Part shown: piece after piece, positions 1,402 to 20,347 of the stretch
Layout: every line of letters starts with the position of its first letter
How positions within the stretch are numbered: position 1 is the first letter of the stretch
IMG/VR virus record: IMGVR_UViG_3300020204_000444
Coordinates: 1 to 21,419 of that record
Source of the DNA: a virus
Strand: one strand, 5' to 3'
Length of the DNA stretch: 21,419 bases
Made by a program: the position numbers and the translations under genes
Notes under the pieces: model-generated
What the model saw: the letters and a program-made list of their open reading frames with translations, nothing else
Told to the model about the DNA's origin: nothing
Databases searched by the model: none

Positions 1402-1404
1402 AAA

Positions 1405-2343: not shown

Positions 2344-2349
2344 TTTTAG

Positions 2350-2381
2350 TTTGGCTTTTTAAAATTTAATTAGTATCTTTA
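2350..2381 (+). promoter_or_regulatory. Bacteroidetes-type promoter before DNA polymerase
   Basis: TTTG at 2350-2353, then 20 bases, then TATCTTTA at 2374-2381. This fits the Bacteroidetes vegetative promoter (-33 TTTG, -7 TAnnTTTG). The upstream part TAGTTTGGCT plus a following TTTAAAA recurs at the promoter at 4620. The expected start of transcription falls about at the ATG (2386), so the polymerase message may be leaderless or nearly so. Confidence 0.65.
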
Positions 2382-2385
2382 CAGC

Positions 2386-3633
2386 ATGTACTGGCTGATA
2401 GAAAATCCTCAACATGTAGATATTTTAGCAAAGATAGAATATGAAGTTGCTTATGTTGAAGTAATTCCTACTTCACACAACTTACATCCTGTTGAAAATG
2501 AAGTATGTGCTTTATACATTCGTCCAAGAGATGATTCAAAAGGATATATTATCCCAATCAACCATAGTGAAACAATAAATTCTACAATAGATGATTGTTT
2601 AAAGGTATTAAACAGTATAAAAAATATTTACGTAAGGGATAGAAAGGAATTTCTACATTATTTTTGCCTTAAGCATTGCTACCAATACTCACCCTCCCCC
2701 TATACGTATATACCTCAACAAACAACGGCTCACACGCACATTTACAACAAGTATCCAAACATACAATACTTAAACACAATAGTACCGATTGTAAAACACT
2801 ATGAGGTATGTGAACAAAACTATGCTAACTTTAAAGGTGAAATAAACCCATTTTACAACAAAGCAGCACTTGTGTTTAATCAACTAGAACGAACGGGTAT
2901 TAAAGTAGACCCATTGTTATTCGAGGAATACTTTGATCAACAAGTAAACGAATTTGTTTACACGCAATACAATTTAAACACGCTAACAACAAGACCATCA
3001 AATACATTTAATACTATTAACTTTTCAGCCCTAAACAAAGACAATGAAGAAAGAAAATGCTTTATACCCCGTAATGAGAGTTTTATTGAGTTTGATATTT
3101 CTGCTTATCACCCTACCCTTTTGGCTAGTCTTTGCGGTTACGACTTTAGTAGTGACGATATCCACTTATCTTTTGCTCAAATGTATGGAGTTGACTATGC
3201 CAAAGCAAAAGAGATCACGTTTAAACAGCTTTATGGAGGAATTTGGAAAGAATACGAGACCTTGGACTTTTTTCGACAAGTAAAAGCATATACAGACGAT
3301 TTGTGGAAAACATTTAATACAAACGGATACATTAAATGCCCTATTTCAGATCATAAATTTATAAAAAAGGATCTGGAGAATATGAATCCACAAAAGCTTT
3401 TAAATTACGTACTACAAAACTTGGAGACCGCAAATAATGTTCTTATATTATATGAGATATTTAAGATTTTGCGAGGGAAAAATACTAAACTCGTGTTATA
3501 TGTGTACGATTCATTTTTATTTGATGTAGATGAAAGTGAAATAGATACAATAGAGCAAATAAAACAGGTATTTAAAGATAAAAAATTACAAATAAAAATT
3601 AAAAAAGGTAAAAACTACCACGAAATTAAATAA
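2386..3633 (+). CDS. Compact family A (Pol I-like) DNA polymerase, degenerate exonuclease region
   Basis: A 415-residue template-dependent DNA polymerase, probably the phage replicase. Family A landmarks appear in order: LERTGIKVD (168-175); TTRPSN (201-206, equivalent to TATGRLSS); motif A with FDISAYHP (catalytic Asp237); motif B with AKAKEITFKQLYGG (272-285); LQNLETANN (343-351); motif C with YVYDSF (Asp375). In motif C the usual His-Asp-Glu is Tyr-Asp-Ser. Residues 18-62 keep the outline of a 3'-5' exonuclease start (VEVIPTSHNLHP, then YIIPINHSE), but the DxE metal-binding pair is absent. Only about 26 residues separate LERTGIKVD from TTRPSN, where bacterial Pol I has more than 100, so most of the thumb is missing. 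It is the first gene after a host-like promoter; the next gene starts five bases after its stop. Confidence 0.85.
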   Translation: MYWLIENPQHVDILAKIEYEVAYVEVIPTSHNLHPVENEVCALYIRPRDDSKGYIIPINHSETINSTIDDCLKVLNSIKNIYVRDRKEFLHYFCLKHCYQYSPSPYTYIPQQTTAHTHIYNKYPNIQYLNTIVPIVKHYEVCEQNYANFKGEINPFYNKAALVFNQLERTGIKVDPLLFEEYFDQQVNEFVYTQYNLNTLTTRPSNTFNTINFSALNKDNEERKCFIPRNESFIEFDISAYHPTLLASLCGYDFSSDDIHLSFAQMYGVDYAKAKEITFKQLYGGIWKEYETLDFFRQVKAYTDDLWKTFNTNGYIKCPISDHKFIKKDLENMNPQKLLNYVLQNLETANNVLILYEIFKILRGKNTKLVLYVYDSFLFDVDESEIDTIEQIKQVFKDKKLQIKIKKGKNYHEIK

Positions 3634-3638
3634 AAGTT

Positions 3639-4100
3639 ATGTACAATACTTTAGAACGCCCCTATCATATGTATGATCAATACGACTATGATTTTACATT
3701 TGATACGTTATTGATGAACAATAGATTGTTTTGTACTTTTACACCATTGAGTGAATTAGAGGCGTTGATTCTAGCATTAACAAATCGTTACAGTATAATG
3801 TACAATAAAATGTTTGTGTTGCATATTAAAAGCAATAACGAATATGTTATCACATATAATGTAGATCAAGGAAACGTAAATGACATTCCTGACAATACTA
3901 TTTTAGTACATAGAAAAAAAGAATCAAATACACTTTATACAATAAACGCGTTAAACGAGTTAATTAAAAAGTTAAACGGAGGTGTAGTTGATACTAACTT
4001 TTCAGTAAATTGGCAACATTATAGAAATTGTATATTGTTAACTCAACACAATGAGATTAAACAATTAAATACAAAGATTTTTAAAATTGTTGAACTGTGA
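3639..4100 (+). CDS. Hypothetical protein after DNA polymerase
   Basis: This 153-residue protein has no recognised domain. It starts five bases after the polymerase stop, with the start context AAAAGTTATG that recurs at other genes here. It is rich in Asn, Tyr and Leu, has no membrane segment, and ends in a pattern (NWQHYRNCILL, then LNTKIFKIVEL) I associate with an uncharacterised family in Bacteroidetes-type myophages. Tight coupling to the small polymerase raises the possibility of an accessory subunit, but nothing in the sequence proves it. The stop codon overlaps the GTG start of the next gene. Confidence 0.6.
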   Translation: MYNTLERPYHMYDQYDYDFTFDTLLMNNRLFCTFTPLSELEALILALTNRYSIMYNKMFVLHIKSNNEYVITYNVDQGNVNDIPDNTILVHRKKESNTLYTINALNELIKKLNGGVVDTNFSVNWQHYRNCILLTQHNEIKQLNTKIFKIVEL

Positions 4101-4615
4101 AAAAATCTCAATTAAAGCAAATTATTAGAGAAGAAATACAAAAAGTATTATCTACTATCCCAACTATTGAATTAAATACTTCTTTTCTTCAATCTCAAGA
4201 TGATTTTGAAAGAGGAGGGGATACAGGATATACTGTATGGAAACCCGAATTCAAAAATGGTTTAAAAGCAACCCAACAAAATTTTAAATCATCTGGTAAA
4301 CCTGCTATTCCTGCTCAAAAAATACCATTTGAGATGATAGATACTATGAGTGATGAAGGAGGAGATATACCTTATATTAATGTTAAATTTAAAAAACCAC
4401 TAAATGAAATTTTTATAGATTTAGATGATTATGATCCTGAAGAGTTTGGTGTAGAAGATTTTGATAAATTTGATGAAATAGTTGAATCTAAACCCAACCC
4501 AACATTACAGGATGTTTCTGAATTAATTGATTTAAAAAATAAAAATTTAAGTTTTTATGGATGTTATGTTTTGGATATTAAACCAAACGAAATAATTAAA
4601 ATTTCAAAGAAATAA
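4097..4615 (+). CDS. Hypothetical protein with N-terminal amphipathic helix (LKQIIREEI)
   Basis: 172 residues, starting at GTG (4097) in a four-base overlap (GTGA) with the previous stop. The N-terminus MKKSQLKQIIREEIQKVLS is a short basic amphipathic helix; similar leaders precede otherwise unrelated proteins in marine phages. The rest is acidic (for example DLDDYDPEEFGVEDFDKFD) and matches no domain I recognise. A comparable leader (MIKLTNLLKEII) occurs on the gene at 9977. The gene is AT-richer than its replication neighbours, so it may be an inserted accessory gene. A capsid-targeting leader, as on T4 internal proteins, is a possible but untested explanation. Confidence 0.6.
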   Translation: MKKSQLKQIIREEIQKVLSTIPTIELNTSFLQSQDDFERGGDTGYTVWKPEFKNGLKATQQNFKSSGKPAIPAQKIPFEMIDTMSDEGGDIPYINVKFKKPLNEIFIDLDDYDPEEFGVEDFDKFDEIVESKPNPTLQDVSELIDLKNKNLSFYGCYVLDIKPNEIIKISKK

Positions 4616-4621
4616 AAATAG

Positions 4622-4653
4622 TTTGGCTATTTAAAAAAAGGTTATTATATTAA
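4622..4653 (+). promoter_or_regulatory. Bacteroidetes-type promoter before SSB
   Basis: TTTG at 4622-4625, a 20-base spacer, then TATATTAA at 4646-4653, one base off TAnnTTTA. The segment TAGTTTGGCT followed by TTTAAAA is shared with the polymerase promoter, which makes chance unlikely. It predicts a leader of roughly 24 bases containing AAAATAGTTATAT just before the start codon. Confidence 0.6.
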
Positions 4654-4681
4654 ACGTTGTAAACAATAAAAATAGTTATAT

Positions 4682-5506
4682 ATGAATCTCGATGCAATCA
4701 AGAAAAAACTTGAATCAATGCAAAAAACCTCTAATGGAGGATCTAACAATTCAAGTAACGTCAAGCGTTTTAAACCAACGATTGGCAAACAAACAATCCG
4801 TATTGTACCTTTTAAATACAATAAGGAATTTCCATTTACGGAAATGAAATTTTATTACGGAATTGGAAGCCGTAAAGTAATCGCTTCACCTTTAAACTGG
4901 GGTGAAAAGGATCCAATTGCAGAATTTGCAAAACAATTACGTGGAACAAACGACAAAGAAAATTGGCGTTTAGCTAAAAAATTAGATCCGAAAACTCGTA
5001 TCTACGCTCCTGTAATTGTACGTGGTGAAGAATCTGAAGGTGTTCAATTGTGGGAATTTGGTAAAGAAATTTACGAAGCATTTTTGCAAATGGCTGCTGA
5101 TGAAGAAGTAGGTGATTTTACAGATATTATGTCTGGTAGAGACATTAAGTTGGTTACTGTAGGACCTGAATCAACAGGAACAGCTTACAATAAAACAACT
5201 ATTGCTCCGTCAATGAAAACATCTGCACTATCTGAAGATTCTAAACAAATTGAAAAATGGTTAGAAGAGCAAGAAAATCCAAAAGATATGTACAAGCCGC
5301 TTCCATTTGATACAATCAAACAAGCACTTCAAGAATGGTTAGATCCTGAAGCAGAGGAAGAAGAAGCAACAACTGAACCTGCAGACGAAATAAAAGAAGA
5401 ACCTAAGTCAAATTACAGTTTATCTACTAAACCAGCAGTTAAAAAATCAAAAGCAGAAGCATTTGACGATTTGTTTGGTGAGGATGATGATGATGCTCCA
5501 TTTTAA
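4682..5506 (+). CDS. Single-stranded DNA-binding protein (T4 gp32-like)
   Basis: 274 residues with gp32-family architecture: a basic N-terminal arm (MNLDAIKKKLESMQ), a Gly/Ser/Asn linker, an OB-fold core (about 28-190, with KQTIRIVPFKYN, FTEMKFYYGIG, SPLNWGEKDPIAEF and QLWEFGKEIYEAF), and a long acidic C-terminal tail. It should coat single-stranded DNA and organise polymerase, helicase and recombinase at the fork. The core has no cysteine, so the zinc site of T4 gp32 is absent. The last residues are DDDDAPF, close to the DDDIPF tip of bacterial SSB. It is first in an operon with uvsX-like and exonuclease genes, under its own promoter. Confidence 0.88.
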   Translation: MNLDAIKKKLESMQKTSNGGSNNSSNVKRFKPTIGKQTIRIVPFKYNKEFPFTEMKFYYGIGSRKVIASPLNWGEKDPIAEFAKQLRGTNDKENWRLAKKLDPKTRIYAPVIVRGEESEGVQLWEFGKEIYEAFLQMAADEEVGDFTDIMSGRDIKLVTVGPESTGTAYNKTTIAPSMKTSALSEDSKQIEKWLEEQENPKDMYKPLPFDTIKQALQEWLDPEAEEEEATTEPADEIKEEPKSNYSLSTKPAVKKSKAEAFDDLFGEDDDDAPF

Positions 5507-5521
5507 TTAAGTAAATAAGTT

Positions 5522-6607
5522 ATGGCTAAAGGAAGAAAATCGCTTACTGAAGCGGCGGGTAATGAACTAAAATCCGCGTTCAATTTAGATAAATTTAAGG
5601 CGAATAAAGGTTTAGCATCAAATGTTAAATTTAAAGAGCAAAGATGGATTCCATTTTCACCTGCTCTTCAAGAAGCATTGTCTATCCCTGGTATTCCTAT
5701 GGGACATAATTCAATGGTTCGAGGTAAAAGTAACACAGGTAAATCAACTATGACTATTGAAGTAGCAGTTAATGCTCAAAAGATGGGAATATTACCTGTG
5801 TTGATTATTACCGAAATGAAACACGATTGGAACCACTGGAAAACAATGGGTTTTGAAATCGAAGATGTAGTTGATATGGAAACTGGTGAGATTATTGATC
5901 AAACAGGTTTCTTTATTTACCGAGATAGAAGTTCATTAAATTCAATTGAAGATATTGCTGAGTTTATTATCGACTTACTAGCCGAACAGAAAAAAGGTAA
6001 TCTACCATATGATTTACTATTCCTTTGGGATTCAGTTGGTTCAATTCCATGTCAAATGTCAATTGAACAAGGTAAAAATAATCCAATGTGGAACGCAGGA
6101 GCTATTGCAACTCAATTCGGTAATTTTATTAATCAACAGATTGTAATGTCTCGCAAAGAAAGCTCAAAATACACAAATACTTTATTTGTTGTAAATAAAG
6201 TAGGCGTTGCTCCGGCTTTAACTCCTATGTCACAACCTAGGATGACAAATAAAGGTGGAGATACATTTTACTATGACGTGTCATTGTGTTTAACCTTTGG
6301 AAATGTTACAAATGCTGGTACTTCTAAACTTAACGCTGTTAAAGACAAGAAAAAAGTTGAATTTGCATTACGTACAAAAATTGCTTGTGATAAAAACCAT
6401 ATTAATGGAATTACTACAATGGGTACTATTGTTTCAACAGTACATGGATTCATTAAAGATGATCCAAACGCAATTAAAAAGTACAAAGATGCTCACGTTC
6501 ACGAATGGGCAGATATTTTAGGAAAAGGTAATTATACAGTACAGGAAGACAATAGTGAGTGGGACGAAAAAGCACCTACACCTGATTTATTTGAAAACGA
6601 AGATTAA
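5522..6607 (+). CDS. uvsX: UvsX/RecA-like recombinase
   Basis: A 361-residue RecA-fold ATPase that should form filaments on single-stranded DNA and drive strand exchange for recombination-dependent replication and repair. Walker A is GKSNTGKST (68-76); a Glu in LIITEMK (98) lies where RecA has its catalytic Glu; Walker B is LLFLWD (165-170) followed by SVGSIP; a loop with SQPRMTNKGGDTFYYD follows. The C-terminus is acidic. The start ATG is preceded by AAATAAGTT. It follows SSB by 15 bases, the pairing expected since gp32 and UvsX work together in T4. The symbol is given by homology of role; gp32-UvsX neighbourhood supports UvsX rather than host RecA. Confidence 0.88.
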   Translation: MAKGRKSLTEAAGNELKSAFNLDKFKANKGLASNVKFKEQRWIPFSPALQEALSIPGIPMGHNSMVRGKSNTGKSTMTIEVAVNAQKMGILPVLIITEMKHDWNHWKTMGFEIEDVVDMETGEIIDQTGFFIYRDRSSLNSIEDIAEFIIDLLAEQKKGNLPYDLLFLWDSVGSIPCQMSIEQGKNNPMWNAGAIATQFGNFINQQIVMSRKESSKYTNTLFVVNKVGVAPALTPMSQPRMTNKGGDTFYYDVSLCLTFGNVTNAGTSKLNAVKDKKKVEFALRTKIACDKNHINGITTMGTIVSTVHGFIKDDPNAIKKYKDAHVHEWADILGKGNYTVQEDNSEWDEKAPTPDLFENED

Positions 6608-6608
6608 T

Positions 6609-7640
6609 ATGAAAAAAAACCTCTTAAACCTCTTAGATAACATACAAGAACACGGGGAAGAAACCCCACAATCGGAGCGCTACCTGCTTATAGATGGACT
6701 CAATCTCTTCTTTCGAAATTTTAGTGCAATTAATGCAGTCAATTCAAACGGAGTCCATATAGGGGGTTTAGGAGGATTTTTTCGTTCTTTGGGGGCTTTA
6801 ATTCGCACCATTCAACCAACCCAAGTTTATGTTGTGTTTGATGGTGCGGGTTCCTCCAATAATAGAAAAAATATTATACCGGAATATAAATCTGCAAGAA
6901 ATATAACTCGAGTAACAAAACATGAATTGTTTGATAGTTTGGAAGAAGAAGACGACTCTAAAGTAGATCAAATTGTTCGAATCATTCAATATTTAAAAAC
7001 ACTACCTGTTAAAACAATATCTTTACCTCGAGTAGAAGCAGATGATATTATTGCATATTTAAGTGATACATTGCCTACAAAACCTAAAGATAGAGTATTC
7101 ATAGTATCCAGTGACAAAGACTATTTACAGTTGGTAACCGAAAAAGTAATCGTTTATCGCCCAATTGAAAAAGAATATTACACTACAGATACTGTAAAAG
7201 AAAAATTTAATATTCCTCCCCACAATTTTTTATTATACAAATTGTTGATAGGTGATAATTCCGATGGAATTATAGGTATTAAGGGATTAGGACCTAAAGG
7301 TTTATTTAAAAAATTCCCTGAATTAGCTGAACGTGATTTATCGTTTGATGATCTGCTAGATATAGCGGAAGCTAAATTAAAAGAACATATTGTGTATGCA
7401 AGAGTGTTACATGATGTTCCCCTATTAGAAGACAAATACAAAGTCATGGATTTATCTAATCCTATGATGAGCGATACAGATAAAATGTTTATAGATAAGT
7501 TTGTTGAAACAACCCACTTAAACTTTTTACCTCACACATTTGTTGAAATGTGCAACGAAGACCAAATTGGAAACTTAATTCGAAATACTGAATTCTGGGT
7601 TCAAGATGTTTTCAAAGATTTGTTGGTTACCCGACAATAA
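6609..7640 (+). CDS. 5'-3' exonuclease / RNase H (FEN-type)
   Basis: 343 residues starting at ATG 6609, one base after the uvsX stop; an in-frame ATG at 6555 lies inside uvsX and was not used. Metal-binding acidic residues of the PIN/FEN nuclease fold are all present: Asp29 in LLIDGLN, Asp78 in VVFDG, Glu143/Asp145/Asp146 in VEADD, Asp169/Asp171 in SSDKDY, then GDNSDG (215-220). A helix-3-turn-helix segment follows (GIKGLGPK, 223-230) that grips DNA. The enzyme should remove RNA primers and flaps from lagging strands, like T4 Rnh or the N-terminal domain of Pol I; the small polymerase in this window has no such domain of its own. Length fits stand-alone phage FENs (about 300-350). Confidence 0.88.
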   Translation: MKKNLLNLLDNIQEHGEETPQSERYLLIDGLNLFFRNFSAINAVNSNGVHIGGLGGFFRSLGALIRTIQPTQVYVVFDGAGSSNNRKNIIPEYKSARNITRVTKHELFDSLEEEDDSKVDQIVRIIQYLKTLPVKTISLPRVEADDIIAYLSDTLPTKPKDRVFIVSSDKDYLQLVTEKVIVYRPIEKEYYTTDTVKEKFNIPPHNFLLYKLLIGDNSDGIIGIKGLGPKGLFKKFPELAERDLSFDDLLDIAEAKLKEHIVYARVLHDVPLLEDKYKVMDLSNPMMSDTDKMFIDKFVETTHLNFLPHTFVEMCNEDQIGNLIRNTEFWVQDVFKDLLVTRQ

Positions 7641-7653
7641 GTTATTAAATTTA
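7623..7653 (+). promoter_or_regulatory. Bacteroidetes-type promoter before helicase
   Basis: TTG at 7623-7625, 20 bases, then TAAATTTA at 7646-7653. The -33 part lies inside the end of the exonuclease gene. Spacing is identical to the other three candidates in the window. The predicted leader is about 13 bases and contains AGTTAT before the ATG. Confidence 0.5.
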
Positions 7654-7670
7654 AATAAAAGTTATAATAT

Positions 7671-9023
7671 ATGACACTTCATTCAATAGATGAATACGGA
7701 CCCACGTTTCAAATGAAAGTAATATCTTCATTATTAACGCATAAAGAATTTTTACAAAACATCAATGATGTACTGAGCGATGAATATTTTTCAAACCCAG
7801 CACATAAATGGGTTATAAATGAAATCTTAAAGTACTACGAAAAGTACCACACAACCATTTCAATGGATATTTTAAAAGTTGAAATGAAAAAGTTAGACAA
7901 TGAAGTACTTAAAGTATCTGTTAAAGAACAGTTACGAGAAGCATATAGAGCAGACATTGAAGATTTACAGTATGTACAAGAAGAATTTTCTACATTTTGT
8001 AAAAACCAACAGTTAAAAAAAGCTCTATTAAATAGTGTTGATTTGTTAAAAGCAGGCGATTACGATTCTATCAAATACATGATTGAATCAGCAATGAAAG
8101 CAGGTGCTGATAAAAACATTGGACACGAATATAAAAAAGATACCGAATCACGTTACCGTGAAGACCATAGAACAATAGTACCTACTCCTTGGCCTGAAAT
8201 TAATGAACTAGTTCAAGGTGGTTTAGGTAATGGAGATTTAGGTTTAATTTTTGGTAATCCTGGAGGAGGTAAATCTTGGACATTAGTTGCTCTAGGTGGT
8301 TATGCTGTAAAAATAGGATACAATGTTATCCACTATACTTTAGAATTAAGTGAAGCATATACTGGAAGACGATATGACGCTTTCTTTACTGGTGTACCTG
8401 TTGACCAATTAGAAAAACATAAAGATGCTGTAGAAAATTCAACAGCTGATTTACCAGGTGAATTAATTATTCGTGAATTTCCTATGGGAAAAACAACAAT
8501 TTCTACAATAGAAGCGCACATAAACAAGGTAAAAGATTTAGGAATCACCCCAGACCTTATCATAATAGATTACATTGACCTTCTTTCTTCAAAACGAAAA
8601 AGGAGTGATCGTAAAGAAGAAATTGATGATATTTATACAAGTACTAAAGGATTAGCTCGCGAATTAAACATACCAATTTGGTCAGTTTCGCAAGTAAATC
8701 GCGCAGGAGCCAAGGATGATGTTATTGAGGGCGATAAAGCCGCGGGAAGTTATGACAAAATGATGATAACTGACCTTTCAATATCGTTATCAAGAAAGAA
8801 AGAAGATAAAGTTAACGGAACAGGAAGACTTCATATTATGAAAAACAGATATGGGATGGATGGACTTACCTTCCAAGTTGAAGTTGACACTTCAACCGGT
8901 AGAATTAAAGTAGGAAACCACTATGACGAAGAAACTGATGCTCCAAAGAAATTATCAAATGAAGAATATGAAGATCTTGACAGAAAAATGCTAGCAAGTA
9001 AATTTTTTGAACTAAATACATGA
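7671..9023 (+). CDS. Replicative DNA helicase, DnaB/gp41 family
   Basis: A 450-residue hexameric RecA-fold helicase that should unwind DNA ahead of the polymerase. An N-terminal helical DnaB-type domain (about 10-145) precedes the motor. Walker A is GNPGGGKSW (195-203), LELSE (224-228) carries the family Glu, Walker B is LIIIDYIDLL (296-305), and SQVNRAG (340-346) is the DnaB sensor loop. MKNRYGMDG near residue 390 matches the KNRxGxxG arginine-finger region. No separate primase gene or fused primase domain is visible in this window. Its TGA overlaps the ATG of nrdB (ATGA), so the two are translationally coupled. Confidence 0.9.
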   Translation: MTLHSIDEYGPTFQMKVISSLLTHKEFLQNINDVLSDEYFSNPAHKWVINEILKYYEKYHTTISMDILKVEMKKLDNEVLKVSVKEQLREAYRADIEDLQYVQEEFSTFCKNQQLKKALLNSVDLLKAGDYDSIKYMIESAMKAGADKNIGHEYKKDTESRYREDHRTIVPTPWPEINELVQGGLGNGDLGLIFGNPGGGKSWTLVALGGYAVKIGYNVIHYTLELSEAYTGRRYDAFFTGVPVDQLEKHKDAVENSTADLPGELIIREFPMGKTTISTIEAHINKVKDLGITPDLIIIDYIDLLSSKRKRSDRKEEIDDIYTSTKGLARELNIPIWSVSQVNRAGAKDDVIEGDKAAGSYDKMMITDLSISLSRKKEDKVNGTGRLHIMKNRYGMDGLTFQVEVDTSTGRIKVGNHYDEETDAPKKLSNEEYEDLDRKMLASKFFELNT

Positions 9024-9970
9024 TAACTGAACCACGCAATTTTTACAAACCTTTTGAGTATCAAACCGCATTTAATTTTTATAAAGACCAACATAGAGCA
9101 CATTGGCTAGCAGATGAAGTACCACTAGCTTCAGATTTAAATGATTGGAAACTTAAATTAAACGATTCTGAACGAAATTTAATTGGAAATATTTTAAAGT
9201 CATTTGCCCAAACAGAAGTACACGTAAACGACTATTGGTCAACAAAAGTATCTATATGGTTTCCAAAACCTGAAGTACAAGCAATGGCTCGTGTATTTGC
9301 TGACTTTGAAAGTATCCATGCTGAAGCATATGCTCGTTTAAATGAAGAACTTGGTTTAGATAATTTTGCAGCGTTTTTAGAAGACGAAGAAGCTAAAGCA
9401 AAAATTGATCGTTTAGTTGAAACACCTGGAGAAACATTACATGAAAAAGCACTTTCATTAGCTATATTCTCTGCATTTACTGAAGGTGTAAATTTATTTT
9501 CTTCATTTGCTGTTTTGATGTCATTTCAATTGCGTAACCTAATGAAAGGTACAGGCCAAATTGTAGAATGGAGCGTACGTGATGAATCATTACATTCAAA
9601 AGCAGGATGCTGGTTATTTAGAACACTAGTAAGCGAAAACCCAGATCTAGATGACCATAAATTAATGGGTGAAATTTACAAAGCATGTGAAGTTTCAGTT
9701 AACCTAGAATTTGACTTTATAGACAAAGCATTTGAAATGGGTGATATTGAAGGTTTATCAAAAGAGCAATTAAAAAACTTTATCAAAGCACGTGCAAACG
9801 AAAAATTAAACGAATTAGGTTATAGTTCACTTTACAACGATGTAGATCCTAATTTACTGAGACAGATGGAATGGTTTAACCATTTAACAAGCGGAAAAAC
9901 ACATCAAGATTTCTTTGCAAACCGAGTAACAGATTATTCAAAATCAACCGCTGATTGGAGCGATTTATAA
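9020..9970 (+). CDS. nrdB: Ribonucleoside-diphosphate reductase beta subunit (class I)
   Basis: 316 residues; the di-iron, tyrosyl-radical subunit of class I ribonucleotide reductase, which makes dNDPs from NDPs with NrdA. All expected ligands are visible: Glu66 (in the place of the E. coli Asp84), Glu97 and His100 in FESIHAEAY, radical Tyr104 seven residues after Glu97, Glu155 in FTEGVNLF, Glu189 and His192 in DESLH. The radical Tyr indicates an Ia/Ib-type enzyme rather than the Tyr-less Ic class. The start overlaps the helicase stop. Unusually, nrdB lies upstream of nrdA and two small genes intervene. Confidence 0.92.
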   Translation: MITEPRNFYKPFEYQTAFNFYKDQHRAHWLADEVPLASDLNDWKLKLNDSERNLIGNILKSFAQTEVHVNDYWSTKVSIWFPKPEVQAMARVFADFESIHAEAYARLNEELGLDNFAAFLEDEEAKAKIDRLVETPGETLHEKALSLAIFSAFTEGVNLFSSFAVLMSFQLRNLMKGTGQIVEWSVRDESLHSKAGCWLFRTLVSENPDLDDHKLMGEIYKACEVSVNLEFDFIDKAFEMGDIEGLSKEQLKNFIKARANEKLNELGYSSLYNDVDPNLLRQMEWFNHLTSGKTHQDFFANRVTDYSKSTADWSDL

Positions 9971-9976
9971 AAAATT

Positions 9977-10432
9977 ATGATAAAATTAACAAACTTATTA
10001 AAGGAAATAATTGATATATATTCTCCTGAAGAATTAAATTCTAAAGATATTGAATATGATATTGAAAAAGAAGCCCCAACTCGTTTTAGAGCCAATTTAA
10101 AATATAAAGATCAATATTATACTTTAACAATTCTCCCTTTATTTAATTCTAAAAGACCATCTATAAATTTTGGAAGTACTGATGAAAATTATGAAAATTT
10201 AAATTTAAACCAATTATTAAATTCTCCATATTCATCTCGAATATTAGCTGCAATTTTTGGTCTAATAAGATATTGGGTAGATAAACATAATATTCAACAA
10301 TTTGAATATGGGGCAGAAGGTAAAACAAGAAACCAACTCTATAACTACTACTTAACTAAACACTTTCCAGATTTTCAAAATACTCAAGAAAAAATTGGAG
10401 ATGCAACTTTACAAGTATGGAAGAAAATATAA
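9977..10432 (+). CDS. Hypothetical protein with N-terminal LLKEI helix, between nrdB and nrdA
   Basis: 151 residues, starting six bases after nrdB. The N-terminus MIKLTNLLKEIIDIY is a short amphipathic helix like the leader on the gene at 4097 and like leaders I recall from many marine-phage proteins. The remainder has predicted alternating strands (RFRANLKYKDQYYTLTILPL) and a C-terminal helical part (AEGKTRNQLYNYYLTKHFP), loosely reminiscent of small alpha/beta enzymes, but I do not recognise the family. It is very AT-rich compared with nrdB and nrdA, which suggests later insertion into the reductase operon. Its last 16 bases overlap the next small gene. Confidence 0.55.
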   Translation: MIKLTNLLKEIIDIYSPEELNSKDIEYDIEKEAPTRFRANLKYKDQYYTLTILPLFNSKRPSINFGSTDENYENLNLNQLLNSPYSSRILAAIFGLIRYWVDKHNIQQFEYGAEGKTRNQLYNYYLTKHFPDFQNTQEKIGDATLQVWKKI

Positions 10433-10557
10433 TATATAAAATAGAAATCATCCAACTTATTGAATCTAAATATAATATTGAAATAAAAGATGAAGAAGTT
10501 GAAAATATATTAACTTTAGAAAATCTAATTGAATTAATAAAAAGTAAAACAAAATAA
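10417..10557 (+). CDS. 46-residue protein resembling the C-terminal half of acyl carrier protein
   Basis: A short gene starting at ATG 10417 and ending right at the nrdA start codon (TAA then ATG). Residues 8-44 follow the helix II-to-end pattern of acyl carrier proteins: IEIIQLIESKYNIEI, then KDEEVENILTLENLIELI, where bacterial ACP has EEEF-xIEIPDEEAEKI followed by T-V-x-x-x-x-x-x-I. The DSL motif with the phosphopantetheine Ser would lie just upstream of the Met and is missing, so it cannot act as a normal carrier. Coding is supported by tight packing between neighbours and the acidic helix pattern. Alternatives are a chance resemblance of a charged helical microprotein. Confidence 0.45.
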   Translation: MEENIIYKIEIIQLIESKYNIEIKDEEVENILTLENLIELIKSKTK

Positions 10558-12282
10558 ATGAGCACACAAGTAGATACAACAGATTGGACAAAAGGTAAAA
10601 ATTATCCTACATGGATGAATGAGATTTCATTATCAATGATTTCTAAAGGTTATTTATTGCCTGATGAAGATGTTTTTGATGCATTTAAACGTGTTTCTAA
10701 AGCAGCAGCACGTCGTTTAAAACGTAAAGATTTATACCCATTCTTTTTAGAAGCAATAGTAAAAAATTGGTTATGTTTAGCTTCACCTGTACTTTCAAAT
10801 TTAGGTACAGAACGTGGAATGCCTATTTCATGTTTTGGAATTGATACAGATGATTCTATTGAAGGAATTGCTCTAGCTAATTCAGAATTAATGCGTTTAT
10901 CATCTCAAGGTGGAGGTGTAGGAATTGGTGTATCCCGTATTAGAGGGCGTGGTAAACAAATTAAAGACAATGGTGTATCTGAAGGTGTAGTTCCTTGGAT
11001 TAAAATATATGATTCAACTATTTTAGCAACCAATCAAGGTTCAGTTAGACGTGGAGCAGCTTCAGCTAACTTACACATCAACCACCCAGATATTGAAGAA
11101 TTTTTAATGATTCGTCGACCAAAAGGAGATGTAAACCGTCAATGTTTAAACATGCATCAATGTGTTGTAATTGATGATGAATTCATGAACAAAGTAGAGG
11201 AACGTGACCCAAAAGCATTAAAATTATGGGGTGAAATATTAAAAACACGTCTAGAAACAGGTGAACCTTACATTATGTTTGAGGACAATGTTAATAATGC
11301 AAATCCTGAAGCATATAAAAAGAATAATTTACATGTTTCTATGACAAACATCTGTTCTGAAATTTCATTATACACAGATGAATTACATTCATTTATTTGT
11401 TGTTTATCTTCTCTTAATTTAGCAAGATGGGATGAATGGAATGAGTATAAATTTGAAAATGGAATGACTTTACCTGAATTAACTTGTTGGTTTTTAGAAG
11501 GTGTATTACAAGAATTTATTGATCGTTCAAAAAACATCCGTTTCATGGAAAACACATACCGCTCAGCATCTAAAGGTAGAGCAATTGGTATTGGTGTTTT
11601 AGGATGGCATACATTTTTACAAGAAAAAGGAATACCGTTTGCGGGATTGCAAGCAAATTCTTATACAAGAGTTATGTTTGAATTCATTGAAAAAGAAGCA
11701 CTAAAGGCTTCCCGCGCCCAAGCTGAACTATATGGAGAACCTGAATGGTGTAAAGGTACCGGACTGCGCCATACCCATCATTTAGCAATTGCCCCAACAG
11801 TTTCTAATGCCCATATTTCAGGTGGTGTTTCACCTTCAATTGAACCAATCCCAGCAAACGTATTTAACTTAAAAACAGCAAAAGGTACCTTTATTAAAAA
11901 GAACCCAACATTAGAAAAATTACTTGAATCTAAAGGATACAATATTGACAGTGTTTGGGATCAAATTGCAAAAGATAAAGGTTCAGTAATGGGGTTACCT
12001 GATTACATTTTGACGGATGAAGAAAAAGAAGTTTTTTTGACATTCAAGGAAATTAACCCATATGAAATTGTTCGTCAAAATGGTATTAGACAAAAATATG
12101 TTGACCAAGCTATTTCATTAAACTTAACATTTGATCCTTCTGATTCACCAAAATATATTAGTGATGTACATAAATTAGCTTGGAAAGAAGGTATTAAAAC
12201 ACTTTATTATATGCGATCTGAATCGATTTTGCGCGGGGATGCAATTCAACGAGACGACAATTGCGTAGCTTGTGAAGGTTAA
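10558..12282 (+). CDS. nrdA: Ribonucleoside-diphosphate reductase alpha subunit, no ATP-cone
   Basis: 574 residues; the catalytic subunit of class I ribonucleotide reductase. Active-site landmarks are present: Cys92 in SCFGIDT, Asn264/Cys266/Glu268 in NICSE, Cys282 in CLSSLNLA, the radical-transfer pair Tyr550/Tyr551 in LYYMRS, and the C-terminal shuttle cysteines Cys569/Cys572 in NCVACEG. PTVSNAHISGGVSPSIEP matches the conserved barrel segment. The N-terminal ATP-cone of about 90 residues found in E. coli NrdA is absent: the protein begins directly with the helical domain, which should make the enzyme insensitive to dATP shut-off through that site. The start directly abuts the preceding stop. 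No glutaredoxin or thioredoxin gene is seen here, so host reductants are presumably used. Confidence 0.92.
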   Translation: MSTQVDTTDWTKGKNYPTWMNEISLSMISKGYLLPDEDVFDAFKRVSKAAARRLKRKDLYPFFLEAIVKNWLCLASPVLSNLGTERGMPISCFGIDTDDSIEGIALANSELMRLSSQGGGVGIGVSRIRGRGKQIKDNGVSEGVVPWIKIYDSTILATNQGSVRRGAASANLHINHPDIEEFLMIRRPKGDVNRQCLNMHQCVVIDDEFMNKVEERDPKALKLWGEILKTRLETGEPYIMFEDNVNNANPEAYKKNNLHVSMTNICSEISLYTDELHSFICCLSSLNLARWDEWNEYKFENGMTLPELTCWFLEGVLQEFIDRSKNIRFMENTYRSASKGRAIGIGVLGWHTFLQEKGIPFAGLQANSYTRVMFEFIEKEALKASRAQAELYGEPEWCKGTGLRHTHHLAIAPTVSNAHISGGVSPSIEPIPANVFNLKTAKGTFIKKNPTLEKLLESKGYNIDSVWDQIAKDKGSVMGLPDYILTDEEKEVFLTFKEINPYEIVRQNGIRQKYVDQAISLNLTFDPSDSPKYISDVHKLAWKEGIKTLYYMRSESILRGDAIQRDDNCVACEG

Positions 12283-16016: not shown

Positions 16017-16577
16017 ATGAGTACAATTATAACCAGAAATAGCGCAACATCAGGAAGTATTCCTTCTTCACTTGTACAAGGTGAATTAGCAATTAACGTA
16101 ACTGACGGACGTTTATTTTATGGTAGCGGCTCAGGCAATGATGTAAAAGAATTTACAGTAAGTGGAAGCGGAATTACTATTAACACTGGTTCATTTGTAA
16201 CAACATCATCATTTAATGCTTATACAGGTTCTAATACATCTCAATTTGCAGGTACTGCTTCATTTGCTTTAACTACTCCTACACCATTTAGGATATCAAC
16301 AGGAAGTATATCTGCTAGTGTAGATATTGGAACTGATATATTTAGAATCACCTCAGGAAGTTCTACTTTCTTTAATATAGATAATCAAGGATCAACTGTT
16401 ATTTCTAGTAGTGCTTCTAATATTTTTCTAATTAAAAATCAAAATAATATTCCTGTATTTACTATAAGTCAAAGTGGAGTAGTAATATTATCAACCCAAT
16501 CACTAAACTTAACAGACCCTGCACCAAATGGTGGAATATATTTTACTTCTGGTAATTTATATGTGGGTCTTGATTAA
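16017..16577 (+). CDS. Tail-fibre protein
   Basis: 186 residues. The N-terminus (ITRNSATSGSIPSSL, then GELAINVTDGRLFYG) matches the leader of many marine-phage fibres, where the GELAINxxDGxLFxG pattern starts the virion-attachment domain. The remainder is a Ser/Thr/Gly repeat shaft (SGSGITINTGSF, TASFALTTP) and ends GGIYFTSGNLYVGLD. It should be a virion fibre or fibre adaptor. No tip domain can be identified, and the protein is short for a complete fibre. Confidence 0.7.
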   Translation: MSTIITRNSATSGSIPSSLVQGELAINVTDGRLFYGSGSGNDVKEFTVSGSGITINTGSFVTTSSFNAYTGSNTSQFAGTASFALTTPTPFRISTGSISASVDIGTDIFRITSGSSTFFNIDNQGSTVISSSASNIFLIKNQNNIPVFTISQSGVVILSTQSLNLTDPAPNGGIYFTSGNLYVGLD

Positions 16578-16589
16578 AATGTATATATT

Positions 16590-16597
16590 TATAAATA
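16590..16597 (+). promoter_or_regulatory. TATAAATA, T4-late-promoter-like octamer before fibre gene
   Basis: An exact TATAAATA in the 41-base gap before the fibre gene at 16619. If used like a T4 late -10, transcription would begin about 16604 and leave a leader near 15 bases, which is plausible. The overlapping TATTTAT (16586-16592) recurs upstream of other fibre genes. Confidence 0.4.
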
Positions 16598-16618
16598 AAA
16601 AACAACTAAATTAAAATT

Positions 16619-17611
16619 ATGGCAACTTGGAAAAAAGTAATAGTCTCGGGCAGCAGTGCAAACCTAACTACCCTTCAAGTAGACAACCTCTCCTCAGGTC
16701 AGGTAGTAATTGGTGGAGGTACAGGCAACTTATCTACAACAGCAATTAACGGAACCGGCAATATTGTAGCAACAACTAATGCCACTAACTTAATACATTC
16801 TGGGTCATTTAGTGGATCATTCTCAGGCAACGGCTCGGGGTTAACAGGTGTTACTGCAACATTTCCCACTACTGCTAAAACTGATTTAACATCAACTGAT
16901 CAGTTTTTTATAAATGATGGAGCTAGTAAATACGTTACATATGGTAACTTATTAACAGATTTAGCAGGTACTAATTTAACAGTTGAAGGTACAGATAGTT
17001 TAACATTAGCAACAACTATTACAGGTATTACCTCTATCTCATCTACTTCATTTACTGGTTCATTATTAGGAAATGTTGAAGGTACTTCAAGTTGGGCAGT
17101 AAATGCACAAAATGTTTCAAGTATTAACAACAATATCACCAATAATACAAACAATTATGTATTAACAGCAACAGGTGGTGGTTCAATTAATGGTGAAGCT
17201 AATTTACAATTTGACGGTACTACATTAACTCTAACAGGTAATGAAACAATTACAGGTAATTTAATTGTACAAGGTACTGCTTCATTCCAAAATACAACAA
17301 ATTTAGAAGTTGCTGATAGATTCGTATTATTAGCTTCTGGTTCAAATGCCGCTGGTGATGGTGGTTTAGTAATTCAACAAGCTACACAAGATGTAGGTGA
17401 ATTATTTGGATATGAAAATTCAATCAATCGTTGGGGTTTCACATCAAGTTTCACTGCAAATCAATCAACATTTAATGCAGCTGCATATGTAACTACAACA
17501 GAAGTTGCAGCATCTGCTCCATCAGCAGCTCCACTTTATGGTGGTGCTTCAAACGGCTACGGTAATATTCATGTTAATACAGCTACAGGAGATATTTATA
17601 TCTACGCTTAA
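16619..17611 (+). CDS. Tail-fibre protein with WKKVIVSGS leader
   Basis: 330 residues. The N-terminus MATWKKVIVSGSSANL is almost the same as that of the 423-residue fibre at 18161 (MPNWKKVIVSGSDATL). A Gly/Ser/Thr-rich shaft follows, including HSGSFSGSFSGNGSGLTGV, a pattern common in myophage fibres. The C-terminal part (ADRFVLLASGSNAAGDGGL, then GELFGYENSINRWGFTSSF) resembles fibre tip-proximal domains of marine phages. The protein should form a trimeric shaft anchored through the shared N-terminus. Confidence 0.72.
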   Translation: MATWKKVIVSGSSANLTTLQVDNLSSGQVVIGGGTGNLSTTAINGTGNIVATTNATNLIHSGSFSGSFSGNGSGLTGVTATFPTTAKTDLTSTDQFFINDGASKYVTYGNLLTDLAGTNLTVEGTDSLTLATTITGITSISSTSFTGSLLGNVEGTSSWAVNAQNVSSINNNITNNTNNYVLTATGGGSINGEANLQFDGTTLTLTGNETITGNLIVQGTASFQNTTNLEVADRFVLLASGSNAAGDGGLVIQQATQDVGELFGYENSINRWGFTSSFTANQSTFNAAAYVTTTEVAASAPSAAPLYGGASNGYGNIHVNTATGDIYIYA

Positions 17612-17633
17612 TAAATTTTATAAAAAAATAGTT

Positions 17634-17837
17634 ATGGGATTTACCGCAAGTCATATTGAGGGAGTTACTCCACTTCAACCACAAAATCAATCTCTATCTT
17701 CAAACCAATTAACGGTTAAGGAGATAGAGATTCTTCTTTCTATGATAAAAAAGACAACTTTCCTTGGAGAAGACATTGAGCCTTTATATAATTTAATAAT
17801 AAAATTACAAAGCCAATACACTGAACAAGTTAAATAA
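17634..17837 (+). CDS. Small helical protein, paralog of the next gene
   Basis: 67 residues. I placed the start at ATG 17634 (context AAAAAAATAGTTATG) because the open frame upstream overlaps the fibre gene. Residues 25-63 (NQLTVKEIEILLSMIKK, then FLGEDIEPLYNLIIKLQ) form helices with a layout matching the next protein: T-x-x-E, about 15 residues, then G-x-D and K-L. No enzymatic motif is seen. It lies between two large fibre genes, so a chaperone or small virion part is possible. Function unknown. Confidence 0.55.
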   Translation: MGFTASHIEGVTPLQPQNQSLSSNQLTVKEIEILLSMIKKTTFLGEDIEPLYNLIIKLQSQYTEQVK

Positions 17838-17844
17838 TTAAGTT

Positions 17845-18081
17845 ATGAACATATTTTCTATTGATTTTACTCATGCCGAATTAAATTTTATTAGACAAGC
17901 ACTTGAAACAATTCCTATTCAAGGACGTGATGCTAAATTTTGTGCTTCTATTCAAATTAAACTAGAACAAGAACTAGAAGAAATTACTCGAATGATTAAA
18001 GCTAAAGAAGAAGAAAAAATGTTAGGTCTTCAACAAATTGTTCAACACGAAGAAACTAAAACAACAAGAAAAAAACAATAA
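17845..18081 (+). CDS. Small helical protein, paralog of the previous gene
   Basis: 78 residues, starting seven bases after the preceding stop with the context ATTAAGTTATG. The first part (FTHAELNFIRQALETIPI, then QGRDAKFCASIQIKLEQ) parallels the 67-residue neighbour, and a charged coiled-coil-like tail (LEEITRMIKAKEEEK) ends in basic residues (TTRKKQ). The shared layout suggests a tandem duplication. Function unknown; helper of fibre assembly is only a positional guess. Confidence 0.55.
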   Translation: MNIFSIDFTHAELNFIRQALETIPIQGRDAKFCASIQIKLEQELEEITRMIKAKEEEKMLGLQQIVQHEETKTTRKKQ

Positions 18082-18160
18082 TATATTTATTATCGTATTA
18101 TAGGCCCCAATAGGGAAGTGGATGTAGCATTCTACATAACCAACCATAATAAAAAAATAA
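18082..18160 (+). promoter_or_regulatory. 79-base intergenic region with two small hairpins and a TATTTAT site
   Basis: The longest gap in the window. TATTTAT is at 18084-18090. CCC (18106-18108) and GGG (18113-18115) flank AATA, and ATGTAG (18122-18127) and CTACAT (18132-18137) pair across CATT. Neither hairpin is followed by a T-tract, so neither is a convincing terminator. The region may be a structured leader of the 423-residue fibre gene. Confidence 0.3.
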
Positions 18161-19432
18161 ATGCCAAACTGGAAAAAAGTCATAGTATCAGGTTCTGATG
18201 CTACATTAAATTCTGTAACTGCAACCGCAGGTTTTACAGGTTCATTATTTGGAACTGCTTCATTTGCTACAAGCGCTTCATATGCTCCAAGTACACCTGC
18301 ATTCCCTTATACGGGTTCTGCAGAAATTACAGGTTCATTAGGCGTAACTGGATCATTAGCTAACGGCAATTCTGTATTAGCTTCAGGTTCATATTCTCAT
18401 GCAGAAGGTGACAATACTCAAGCCGTAGGAGATTACTCTCATGCTGAAGGTTCAGGTACCCAAGCCGTAGGTGATTATTCTCATGCAGAAGGATTAGGCA
18501 CAATAGCCTCAGGCTCATACCAACATGTAACAGGTCAATACAATGTACCTATATCCGATCCTTCTTCATTTGTTGTAGGTAACGGTGCAGATGTTAGTAA
18601 TCGAAGCAACCTGCTAGTCGCCCATGGTAATACTGTACAAGTAACGGGAAGTACGGAGATTACAGGCTCATTAGGCGTAACTGGATCATTTAGTGTTCAA
18701 ACAGCTATTGAATTCTCAGGCACTTCTCGACATATATATGACACATCAGGCTTTCTAAGTATAGATGCTCTTTCTAGAACTGCAAATTATCAATCTGCAG
18801 GATCTTCAATTGATTGGCAAAATAGCTTCTTATATGATTTTGCGGGAAATGCTAGTATTAATTGGAACAGTAGAGACTTAATAGATTCATCAAACACTGC
18901 AGTTTTTAATTGGGATGCATTTGCTCTTAACTATAAAATAGAAACAAACACATACTTAAAAAGATTCATTGATCTAGGTACCCAAGAGGCATTTTCAGAT
19001 GTACCAACAATAGGTAATTTTAATTATGAAGGAGAAGTAATAGAAGGAATATTAGATAATAATGTAGCCCAATTTGATCTAGTATATTTAGAAAAAACAG
19101 ATGGTATGTGGTATCAAGTTACTCAGGGAACTGATAATTGCTCTAGACTTTTAGGAATATGTGCAGAAACTGGTGTTAGCCCTAAAGTTATTTTAGAAGG
19201 ATCAATTACAGTGAATGATGGTTCATATACTGATACGCCACAAGTTCAATATATTGACAATGGATCACCAATATACATTAAAGAAAGTGCAGGAAATACA
19301 ATGTCAATAATAGTGCCTACAACTGCAGGGCAGTATGTTAGAATTTTAGGTCATGCATATTACCAAAACACTAATAACTCCGCATATTGGACAATGAAAT
19401 TTAGACCATCTAATGATTGGGTAGTAATATAA
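18161..19432 (+). CDS. Large tail-fibre / adhesin with YadA-head-like repeats
   Basis: 423 residues, the largest fibre gene here. It begins with the WKKVIVSGS leader shared with the gene at 16619, then a Ser/Ala/Thr shaft (GTASFATSASYA). Three 14-residue repeats of SHAEGxxTxAxGxY type (18395-18520) match the left-handed beta-roll repeats of YadA-like heads. They are flanked by two copies of EITGSLGVTGS. The C-terminal 200 residues (about 18790-19430) hold WQNSFLYDF, NWNSRDLIDSS and a final beta-rich domain ending WTMKFRPSNDWVVI, probably the receptor-facing or trimerisation end. The likely role is host-surface binding. No autoprotease chaperone motif was recognised. Confidence 0.75.
   Translation: MPNWKKVIVSGSDATLNSVTATAGFTGSLFGTASFATSASYAPSTPAFPYTGSAEITGSLGVTGSLANGNSVLASGSYSHAEGDNTQAVGDYSHAEGSGTQAVGDYSHAEGLGTIASGSYQHVTGQYNVPISDPSSFVVGNGADVSNRSNLLVAHGNTVQVTGSTEITGSLGVTGSFSVQTAIEFSGTSRHIYDTSGFLSIDALSRTANYQSAGSSIDWQNSFLYDFAGNASINWNSRDLIDSSNTAVFNWDAFALNYKIETNTYLKRFIDLGTQEAFSDVPTIGNFNYEGEVIEGILDNNVAQFDLVYLEKTDGMWYQVTQGTDNCSRLLGICAETGVSPKVILEGSITVNDGSYTDTPQVQYIDNGSPIYIKESAGNTMSIIVPTTAGQYVRILGHAYYQNTNNSAYWTMKFRPSNDWVVI
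18326..18690 (+). repeat. Direct repeats of 32 bases flanking the YadA-like module
   Basis: Bases 18326-18357 and 18659-18690 are the same 32-base sequence with one mismatch (starts ATTACAGG, ends GGATCATT). Both encode EITGSLGVTGS in the same frame. They bracket the 14-residue repeats and are long enough to allow in-frame recombination that deletes or swaps the module. Confidence 0.8.
18395..18520 (+). repeat. Three tandem 42-base coding repeats (14 residues each)
   Basis: Units at 18395-18436, 18437-18478 and 18479-18520 encode SHAEGDNTQAVGDY, SHAEGSGTQAVGDY and SHAEGLGTIASGSY. A partial fourth (QHVTGQYN) follows. Units one and two are closest, differing mostly at two residues, which suggests recent duplication. 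Confidence 0.85.
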
Positions 19433-19433
19433 C

Positions 19434-19784
19434 ATGGCAAATAAATCAGGCGTACCAGTAGAAAATATTATCAGCATTGCAGGTGTAGCAGCAACATCTA
19501 TAACTAGTTTAGTAGGCATCCCAACTACATCTTTACCAGGTTGGCCAAGTAGCGGACCAACATGTATAGATTCAGTTTTTAGTTACGGTGGAGCACCTGG
19601 TATAGCATGTTCTGCCGGAGCTTCATTTTATAGTTTTGACTCTACAAATAATTTACTTTATAATTTTGGTAGTTGTGGAGGTGATTATGCACCTGAAGGT
19701 TTTTATTCTGACGGCACAGTGATATACTGGTGGCATACTGTTGGTAGAGATTTAGTTTGGGAAGTTATTGGAGAATGTGGATAA
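19434..19784 (+). CDS. Small Cys-containing probable fibre-tip / adhesin protein
   Basis: 116 residues starting one base after the large fibre gene, so co-transcribed with it. The N-terminal part (VENIISIAGVAATSITSLVG) has a pattern I associate with short phage structural leaders, then PGWPSSGPTC. The rest has five cysteines and many aromatic residues (ACSAGASFYSF, LLYNFGSCGG, GFYSDGTVIYWW, ending GEC). Spaced Cys, Gly and Tyr of this kind occur in small beta domains on Bacteroidetes-phage fibres. A receptor-binding tip or accessory adhesin is the best guess; no signal peptide is evident. Confidence 0.5.
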   Translation: MANKSGVPVENIISIAGVAATSITSLVGIPTTSLPGWPSSGPTCIDSVFSYGGAPGIACSAGASFYSFDSTNNLLYNFGSCGGDYAPEGFYSDGTVIYWWHTVGRDLVWEVIGECG

Positions 19785-19788
19785 AAAC

Positions 19789-19819
19789 TTGTCTCCCTAA
19801 AAAATTTTTTTTATATTTA
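19789..19819 (+). promoter_or_regulatory. Bacteroidetes-type promoter after the fibre cluster
   Basis: TTG at 19789-19791, 20 bases, then TATATTTA at 19812-19819, the same spacing as the other three candidates. It lies five bases after the fibre-tip gene and predicts an 11-base leader for the gene at 19835, ending AAAAATAGGTTATG. Confidence 0.6.
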
Positions 19820-19834
19820 ACGAAAAAATAGGTT

Positions 19835-20347
19835 ATGTTATATAAAACGTCTAATAAAGATCTTGTTTATAAAGAAATTAAAAAACTTAAACCACTAAAC
19901 TATAATCAATTTAAGTGGTGGAGACGTTTTGATACCAAATCAAAACCACTTCCTAAAGATGCTACGTTTCTTCAACGTATTCAAAACGGTGAATATGAAT
20001 TTTCCCACTATTTTTGGCAATGGAAATTAACCGAAATTGAATTAAACGATGCATATGAAAAATACAATGGAAACATTCAAATGATGCTTGAAAAAAACGG
20101 AGTTGACTTTGCTCGTAGAAAACGTTTAATGGAAGATTTTAACAAGGATGAAGCTGACCGACTAGAGGCACTTAAAAAAGGATTTTTACGTGAATTTGAT
20201 ATGACGTCTGATGACTATGAAAATAGTCTTTTAAAATTTGATGGGACTACTGAAGAATTTTATGTATATTGTTTAAAGAATTTTAAACGTTTTAGTAGAC
20301 TAATTGAAAGACGTGGTCGCCCTAAAAAAGTAGTTGTATATGAGTAA
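19835..20347 (+). CDS. Hypothetical protein with C-terminal AT-hook-like motif
   Basis: 170 residues. Mostly helical and charged: KEIKKLKPLNYNQFKWWRR near the start, FARRKRLMEDFNKDEAD in the middle. It ends with ERRGRPKKVVVYE, whose RGRP core matches the AT-hook that enters the DNA minor groove. It is first in a new operon behind a host-like promoter, upstream of Smr, nucleotidyltransferase and thymidylate synthase genes. No catalytic motif is recognised. A DNA-binding regulator or DNA-metabolism factor is plausible. Its last eight bases overlap the Smr gene. Confidence 0.55.
   Translation: MLYKTSNKDLVYKEIKKLKPLNYNQFKWWRRFDTKSKPLPKDATFLQRIQNGEYEFSHYFWQWKLTEIELNDAYEKYNGNIQMMLEKNGVDFARRKRLMEDFNKDEADRLEALKKGFLREFDMTSDDYENSLLKFDGTTEEFYVYCLKNFKRFSRLIERRGRPKKVVVYE

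Follow-up and report, generated by a model that had tools for sequence, protein, structure and literature searches.

Mosaic and hypervariable phage fibres, also such with YadA-like parts, are already known in principle. The plasticity of the T4 gp37/gp38 adhesins, attributed to work by Tetart in 1996 and 1998, reportedly involves small repeated adhesin segments and recombination at conserved motifs. Those repeats reportedly lie in the adhesin tip, and their likeness to the fibre treated here is one by description. T4 adhesin duplications are cited in PMC6957217. For a pelagiphage tail fibre, PMC3909814 describes that metaviromic reads are recruited by the conserved N-terminus and under-recruited by the C-terminal part, which is YadA-like. 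Those metaviromic islands concern T7-like pelagiphage fibres and were recognized by read coverage, whereas the present case concerns what is most likely a myophage fibre with a duplicated joint and alleles seen at the level of contigs. Distant Alteromonas phages, according to PMC10579305, have host-recognition (fibre) modules in common. They share with the present case that different phages exchange fibre genes horizontally, and differ from it in that whole modules including a chaperone are concerned and the exchanges are older.

The DNA analysed here, referred to as the window, is an entire IMG/VR virus record of 21419 bases. Its gene at 18161-19432 would encode a modular surface fibre built from an N-terminal plug, a TGSL-rich shaft, a short YadA-like head, a further piece of shaft and a C-terminal beta domain (Table 1), the head comprising three SHAEG units and a conserved tail piece. 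Our best explanation, to which we assign a probability of roughly 0.75, is a mosaic phage fibre of a known kind in which homologous recombination swaps both modules and short alleles. Among the titles listed by a search of literature with few subscription journals, none deals with SHAEG modules bracketed by direct repeats as found here.

Table 1. Features of the fibre gene and its surroundings (window coordinates); G001 and G002 are contigs compared with the window in the text.
Feature	Position	Strand	Remarks
Upstream gene with same N-terminal motif MATWKKVIVSGSSA	16619-17611	+	
Fibre gene	18161-19432	+	ORF, 423 aa, modular
N-terminal plug MPNWKKVIVSGSDATLN	18161-18211	+	common to many other fibre genes
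Variable 5' patch	18214-18248	+	window VTATAGFTGSLF; G001/L003 LYAPSITGSLL
Joint FPYTGSAEITGSLGVTGS, first copy	18302-18357	+	
32-base direct repeat, copy 1	18326-18357	+	
Three 14-residue SHAEG units, YadA-like beta-roll	18389-18514	+	strand ladder in model
Module end QHVTGQYN...VGNG...RSNLLVAHGN	18515-18658	+	in alignment A2 conserved alongside the SHAEG units
32-base direct repeat, copy 2	18659-18690	+	
Variable cassette	18704-18849	+	146 bases in window, 122 in G001
C-terminal domain	19004-19429	+	capsid-decoration-like fold in model, residues 282-423
G001 vs G002 difference-free stretch, 1759 bases	18479-20237	+	

An earlier note on this DNA, made from the sequence alone, had likened the SHAEG repeats to the heads of YadA-type adhesins, and profile, phmmer and structure-model matches bear this out. 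Three HAEG motifs follow each other at a period of 14 residues within 18389-18514. The window protein by itself stays under the 25-bit cut-off of the Pfam family YadA_head (PF05658; E = 0.55, 11.1 bits), and phmmer with the same protein hits 3wp8, a trimeric autotransporter (E = 0.0011). A profile of 38 sequences matches BpaC (E = 1.5e-8) and CbpF (E = 9.6e-5), PF05658 is matched at E 0.01 or better in 20 of the 38 rows of alignment A2 (best 3.2e-11), and 520 of 622 gaps between HAEG motifs measure 14 residues. The model of the fibre, a monomer of modest quality (mean pLDDT 62.6), places strands at residues 66-70, 73-75, 80-84, 87-89, 94-98 and 101-103 (mean pLDDT per block 58-80), the 14-residue period with two strands per turn extending from residue 66 to 117. 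The combination of 14-residue repeats with a strand ladder of equal period is also that of YadA-type heads (PF05658; BpaC, CbpF). The predicted viral structures that match the fibre model include a protein named LbR_YadA-like; Foldseek against the PDB gave no match at E 0.001, neither for this model nor for that of the inserted domain described below. Unlike YadA-type autotransporters, the window protein is the product of a phage gene with plug, shaft and C-domain. Pfam yields no C-terminal membrane-anchor family at E 1, and the C-terminus models as another fold. The protein thus has a YadA-like head and is not an autotransporter.

The in-frame 32-base repeats with one mismatch that had been described around the SHAEG module are indeed present: the two copies agree in 31 of 32 bases and lie 333 bases (111 codons) apart in the frame of the ORF. 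Even at up to 3 mismatches these are the only two sites in the window, and no such pair was obtained in 100 shuffles of it, which rules out a chance repeat. The likeness reaches upstream of the 32-mers, with 85% identity between 18311-18357 and 18644-18690. Both copies encode the peptide ITGSLGVTGS, part of the shaft/joint motif FPYTGSAEITGSLGVTGS. Independent codon choice for this peptide would be expected to give about 7.8 differences per 30 bases, and the probability of one or fewer is 0.0007 with the codon usage of all window genes and 0.0013 with that of three fibre-like genes. Codon bias as the source of the identity is thus ruled out as well (P about 0.001). Since neither the shuffles nor codon choice give the pair, the 32-base repeat is best read as a recent local duplication or conversion, beyond a merely repeated peptide.

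The 32-mers code for a shaft joint, TGS[AT]EITGSLGVTGS, whose DNA is doubled where the head module sits. Relatives have one joint when the module is absent and two when it is present, and we infer the order of gain and loss. Of 88 loci, 21 have joints of the type FPYTGSAxITGSLxVTG; these come in 24 distinct forms and are followed by many different sequences. Conservation of the joint at the DNA level was tested across distant phages and not found: the protein is conserved, and the DNA no more so than that of the plug, with a codon identity at shared residues of 0.449 for the joint vs 0.514 for the plug. The joint is thus kept as protein and not as DNA and does not serve as a general site of DNA homology, and its conservation across phages is best read as structural. 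Bracketing repeats are likewise ruled out as a general trait of SHAEG modules, as only 2 of 62 HAEG ORFs outside the window have them. A wider proposal, unlikely in our judgement and put forward tentatively, would make TGSAxITGSLGVTGS-type joints the standard connectors in the fibres of a large Bacteroidota phage group. Modules ending in joints would plug in with the fold unbroken, each gain would leave a duplicated joint that primes later loss, and the fibre would act as a reversible, donor-fed cassette site.

The 32-mer pattern, when viral contigs were scanned for it, turned up in five. Two of these, the diverged L093 and L096, which come from different samples and are 99.99% alike over 9464 bases, carry a fibre gene that lacks HAEG, has a single joint and agrees with that of the window in its N-terminal stretch; the C-domain is related. 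The similarity between window and L093 extends from 18137 to the exact end of copy 1 (73%), and window 18644-18696 matches the same L093 joint as a second stretch; right of the joint, few bases are in common. In L009 and L010, too, there is a single joint (ITGSLNVTGS), behind which a relative of the G001 cassette follows, and on its left side L009 shares little besides the plug. Neither L093 nor L009 is therefore a complete empty site at the DNA level. The single-joint genes of both contig pairs show the module to be optional at a joint. Its length varies, too: in L003 (contig G002) the same two 32-mers are 1050 bases apart and enclose 13 HAEG and an inserted domain, and in L002, whose outer flanks are identical to those of L003, they are 333 bases apart with 3 HAEG in between. 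The module thus varies between relatives. The one variable position of the copies reads GGTTCA in copy 1 and GGCTCA in copy 2 in the window, in L002 and in L003; with this T/C marker in the same position throughout, the three bracketed contigs give no sign of a crossover within the 32-mers. The earlier suggestion that recombination could delete or exchange the module in frame is supported in part, by the variation between relatives and not by a crossover in the 32-mers. As a switch, in which recombination between the 32-mers deletes or restores the module within a population, it appears very doubtful to us. While such a switch would agree with the near-perfect in-frame repeats and with the single-joint relatives that have no module, no near-identical pair differs in module presence, the copy-specific marker is unchanged, the bracket is rare among the other HAEG ORFs, and a deletion is unable to restore the module without a donor.

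Over the 62 distinct ORFs, some of them truncated at contig ends, the HAEG number ranges from 1 to 46. Near-identical groups were defined by at least 99% identity and a HAEG ORF that is complete in two or more members. Nine groups qualified, namely L009/L010, L016/L017, L023/L026, L032/L033 (second ORF), L037/38/39/40/56, L052/L053, L058/L059 (third ORF), L068/L073 and window/L002; L012/L013, L021, L027/L028, L042, L046/L051 and L050/L052, in which the ORF is cut by the contig or locus end, were left out of this count. Array length is unchanged in all nine, i.e. no rapid slippage of the array is seen across these groups. L035 and L049, which have 15 and 14 HAEG, are less than 99% identical. 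Comparing the repeat number, as had been advised, reveals differences between relatives and constancy within near-identical groups. Four weak hits, metagenome-assembled ones, came from searching genome contigs for the module.

All 21.4 kb of the window align collinearly with the end of the 45747-base contig G001. Outside the fibre gene only 2 differences (5878 and 19739) separate the two in 20147 bases, yet inside it 131 alignment columns differ, i.e. diversification is fine-grained and pieces are swapped within one fibre gene. The differences occupy the patch 18214-18248, base 18619, the cassette 18704-18849 and base 18852, and the two contigs agree in their SHAEG module; the variation thus lies on both sides of the module. 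In the cassette it starts 13 bases beyond copy 2, with a net length difference of 24 bases. The cassette alleles are set apart by indels and by changes at bases of many kinds, which speaks informally against targeted mutation at adenines as their source. The range 18326-18690 delimited by the earlier note accordingly contains the repeats and the module, and the part that varies in the nearest contig falls outside it, at 18704-18849. The window-type cassette allele is found on one other contig, L004 (metagenome 3300020190), the other allele on two, L002 and L003, and the window-type 5' patch also in L005 and L007. Contig G002 is an otherwise different phage and shows no difference from G001 over 18479-20237. 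L002 and L003 are identical over roughly 180 bases up to the array and over 1759 bases after it, so that the ends of the exchanged part fall inside the SHAEG array; an identical tract of 1.8 kb is hence joined to a different repeat array in another phage. Between window and L004 the identity per 45-base step ranges from 60% to 100%, and between L035 and L049 similarity breaks off behind the SHAEG array and at codon 21 of a plug gene. Breakpoints that can be placed fall within the SHAEG array, within the cassette or within the N-terminal plug, and none of them within the 32-mers. Among 85 loci, the plug is present in 60 (tblastn with residues 1-50 as query), the head in 65 and the part after the head in 13, and the plug motif has 81 matches in 47 of 82 sequences. 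As in other mosaic fibres, a conserved N-terminus is combined with exchanged distal parts.

L002 and L003 stem from the same metagenome (3300020183), and short reads resolve their 1759 shared identical bases badly, so that part of this mosaic could be due to chimeric assembly. We consider it quite improbable that the patches of the window, G001 and G002 are altogether assembly chimeras of strains with identical stretches, the biology then being reduced to slow fibre divergence. Each cassette allele is present on two contigs, the 5' patch type of the window recurs in other samples, and L035 and L049, from two samples, exhibit the same kind of break. A pure artefact is unlikely given this recurrence of alleles on other contigs; mosaics seen on a single contig may be assembly artefacts.

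According to the preferred reading of a mosaic fibre, the gene would diversify in frame by homologous recombination between co-occurring related phages. The mosaics are seen directly in the contigs, and the recombination would take place during mixed infection. The pieces exchanged would be the SHAEG array, the patch that follows the plug, the cassette behind copy 2 and also larger tracts. Gain of the module would have duplicated the joint, and recombination between the 32-mers might also remove the module, a loss that none of the contigs compared displays. The role of this variation would most likely be to vary which surface structures the phage binds. The locus thereby offers a concrete place to measure the rate and the joints of adhesin-module exchange in natural phages.

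With regard to phage type, two proteins encoded on G001 match tail sheath families and a third matches a tail tube family, and the phage is thus, going by these matches, most likely a myophage. The upstream gene at 16619-17611 starts with the same motif as the fibre gene (MATWKKVIVSGS). The isolate Flavobacterium phage immuto has the same order of a 'structural protein' (MATWKK), two small genes and a 'putative tail fiber-like protein' (MPSWKK), the latter with a different distal part. The plug and this syntenic slot indicate that the host probably belongs to the Bacteroidota. The upstream plug gene also has a near-threshold match to a Chlorovirus glycoprotein repeat (26.4 vs 27 bits).

Because the C-terminal fold resembles capsid decoration proteins, 'tail fibre' is itself a presumptive name and the protein may be a head fibre. 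A head (capsid) fibre or decoration, for which the variation would concern particle adhesion and not host specificity, is in our estimate rather unlikely, and it is compatible with the mosaic reading. The model of residues 282-423 has its best match in 8hdt_G (Z 9.1, rmsd 3.3, 128 aligned), followed by 8qsy_JI (Z 8.3), and the phi29 head fibre base 6qyy_B is matched at Z 4.1. However, only the first two reach Z 8, most other matches of the C-domain having Z 4-8, the phi29 gp12 appendage fragment 3gqh_A is matched as well (Z 4.8), and a fold shows no function. Moreover, the plug is common to genes with quite different C-termini, suggesting that the N-terminus is the attachment end. No PHROG match was found for window 18866-19429.

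Several further observations concern the surroundings of the gene and the arrays. The identical 1759 bases also span two downstream genes, 19434-19784 and most of 19835-20347, neither of which has a PHROG match and both of which may move together with the fibre. The same phage has a further fibre gene (L099:1630-3336, minus strand; G001 41630-43336), whose three-HAEG module has 86% DNA identity to 18382-18590. Contig G005 (L006) matches 178-11285 and 16259-18214 of the window at about 75-86%, and its ends fall inside the order of the window, as in a circularly permuted genome. Inside SHAEG arrays, a domain family of about 105 residues has 9 members on 8 contigs (L003:5674-6024, L025, L027, L032, L036, L041, L048 with two, and L057). 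Against Pfam, the inserted domain gave no family below E 0.02; its model (pLDDT 80.7) consists mostly of strands and has weak fold matches in the PDB, among them entries of F1-ATPase, HerA and GH110. These inserted domains may, as we presume, be the phage counterpart of the head-insertion domains of autotransporters.
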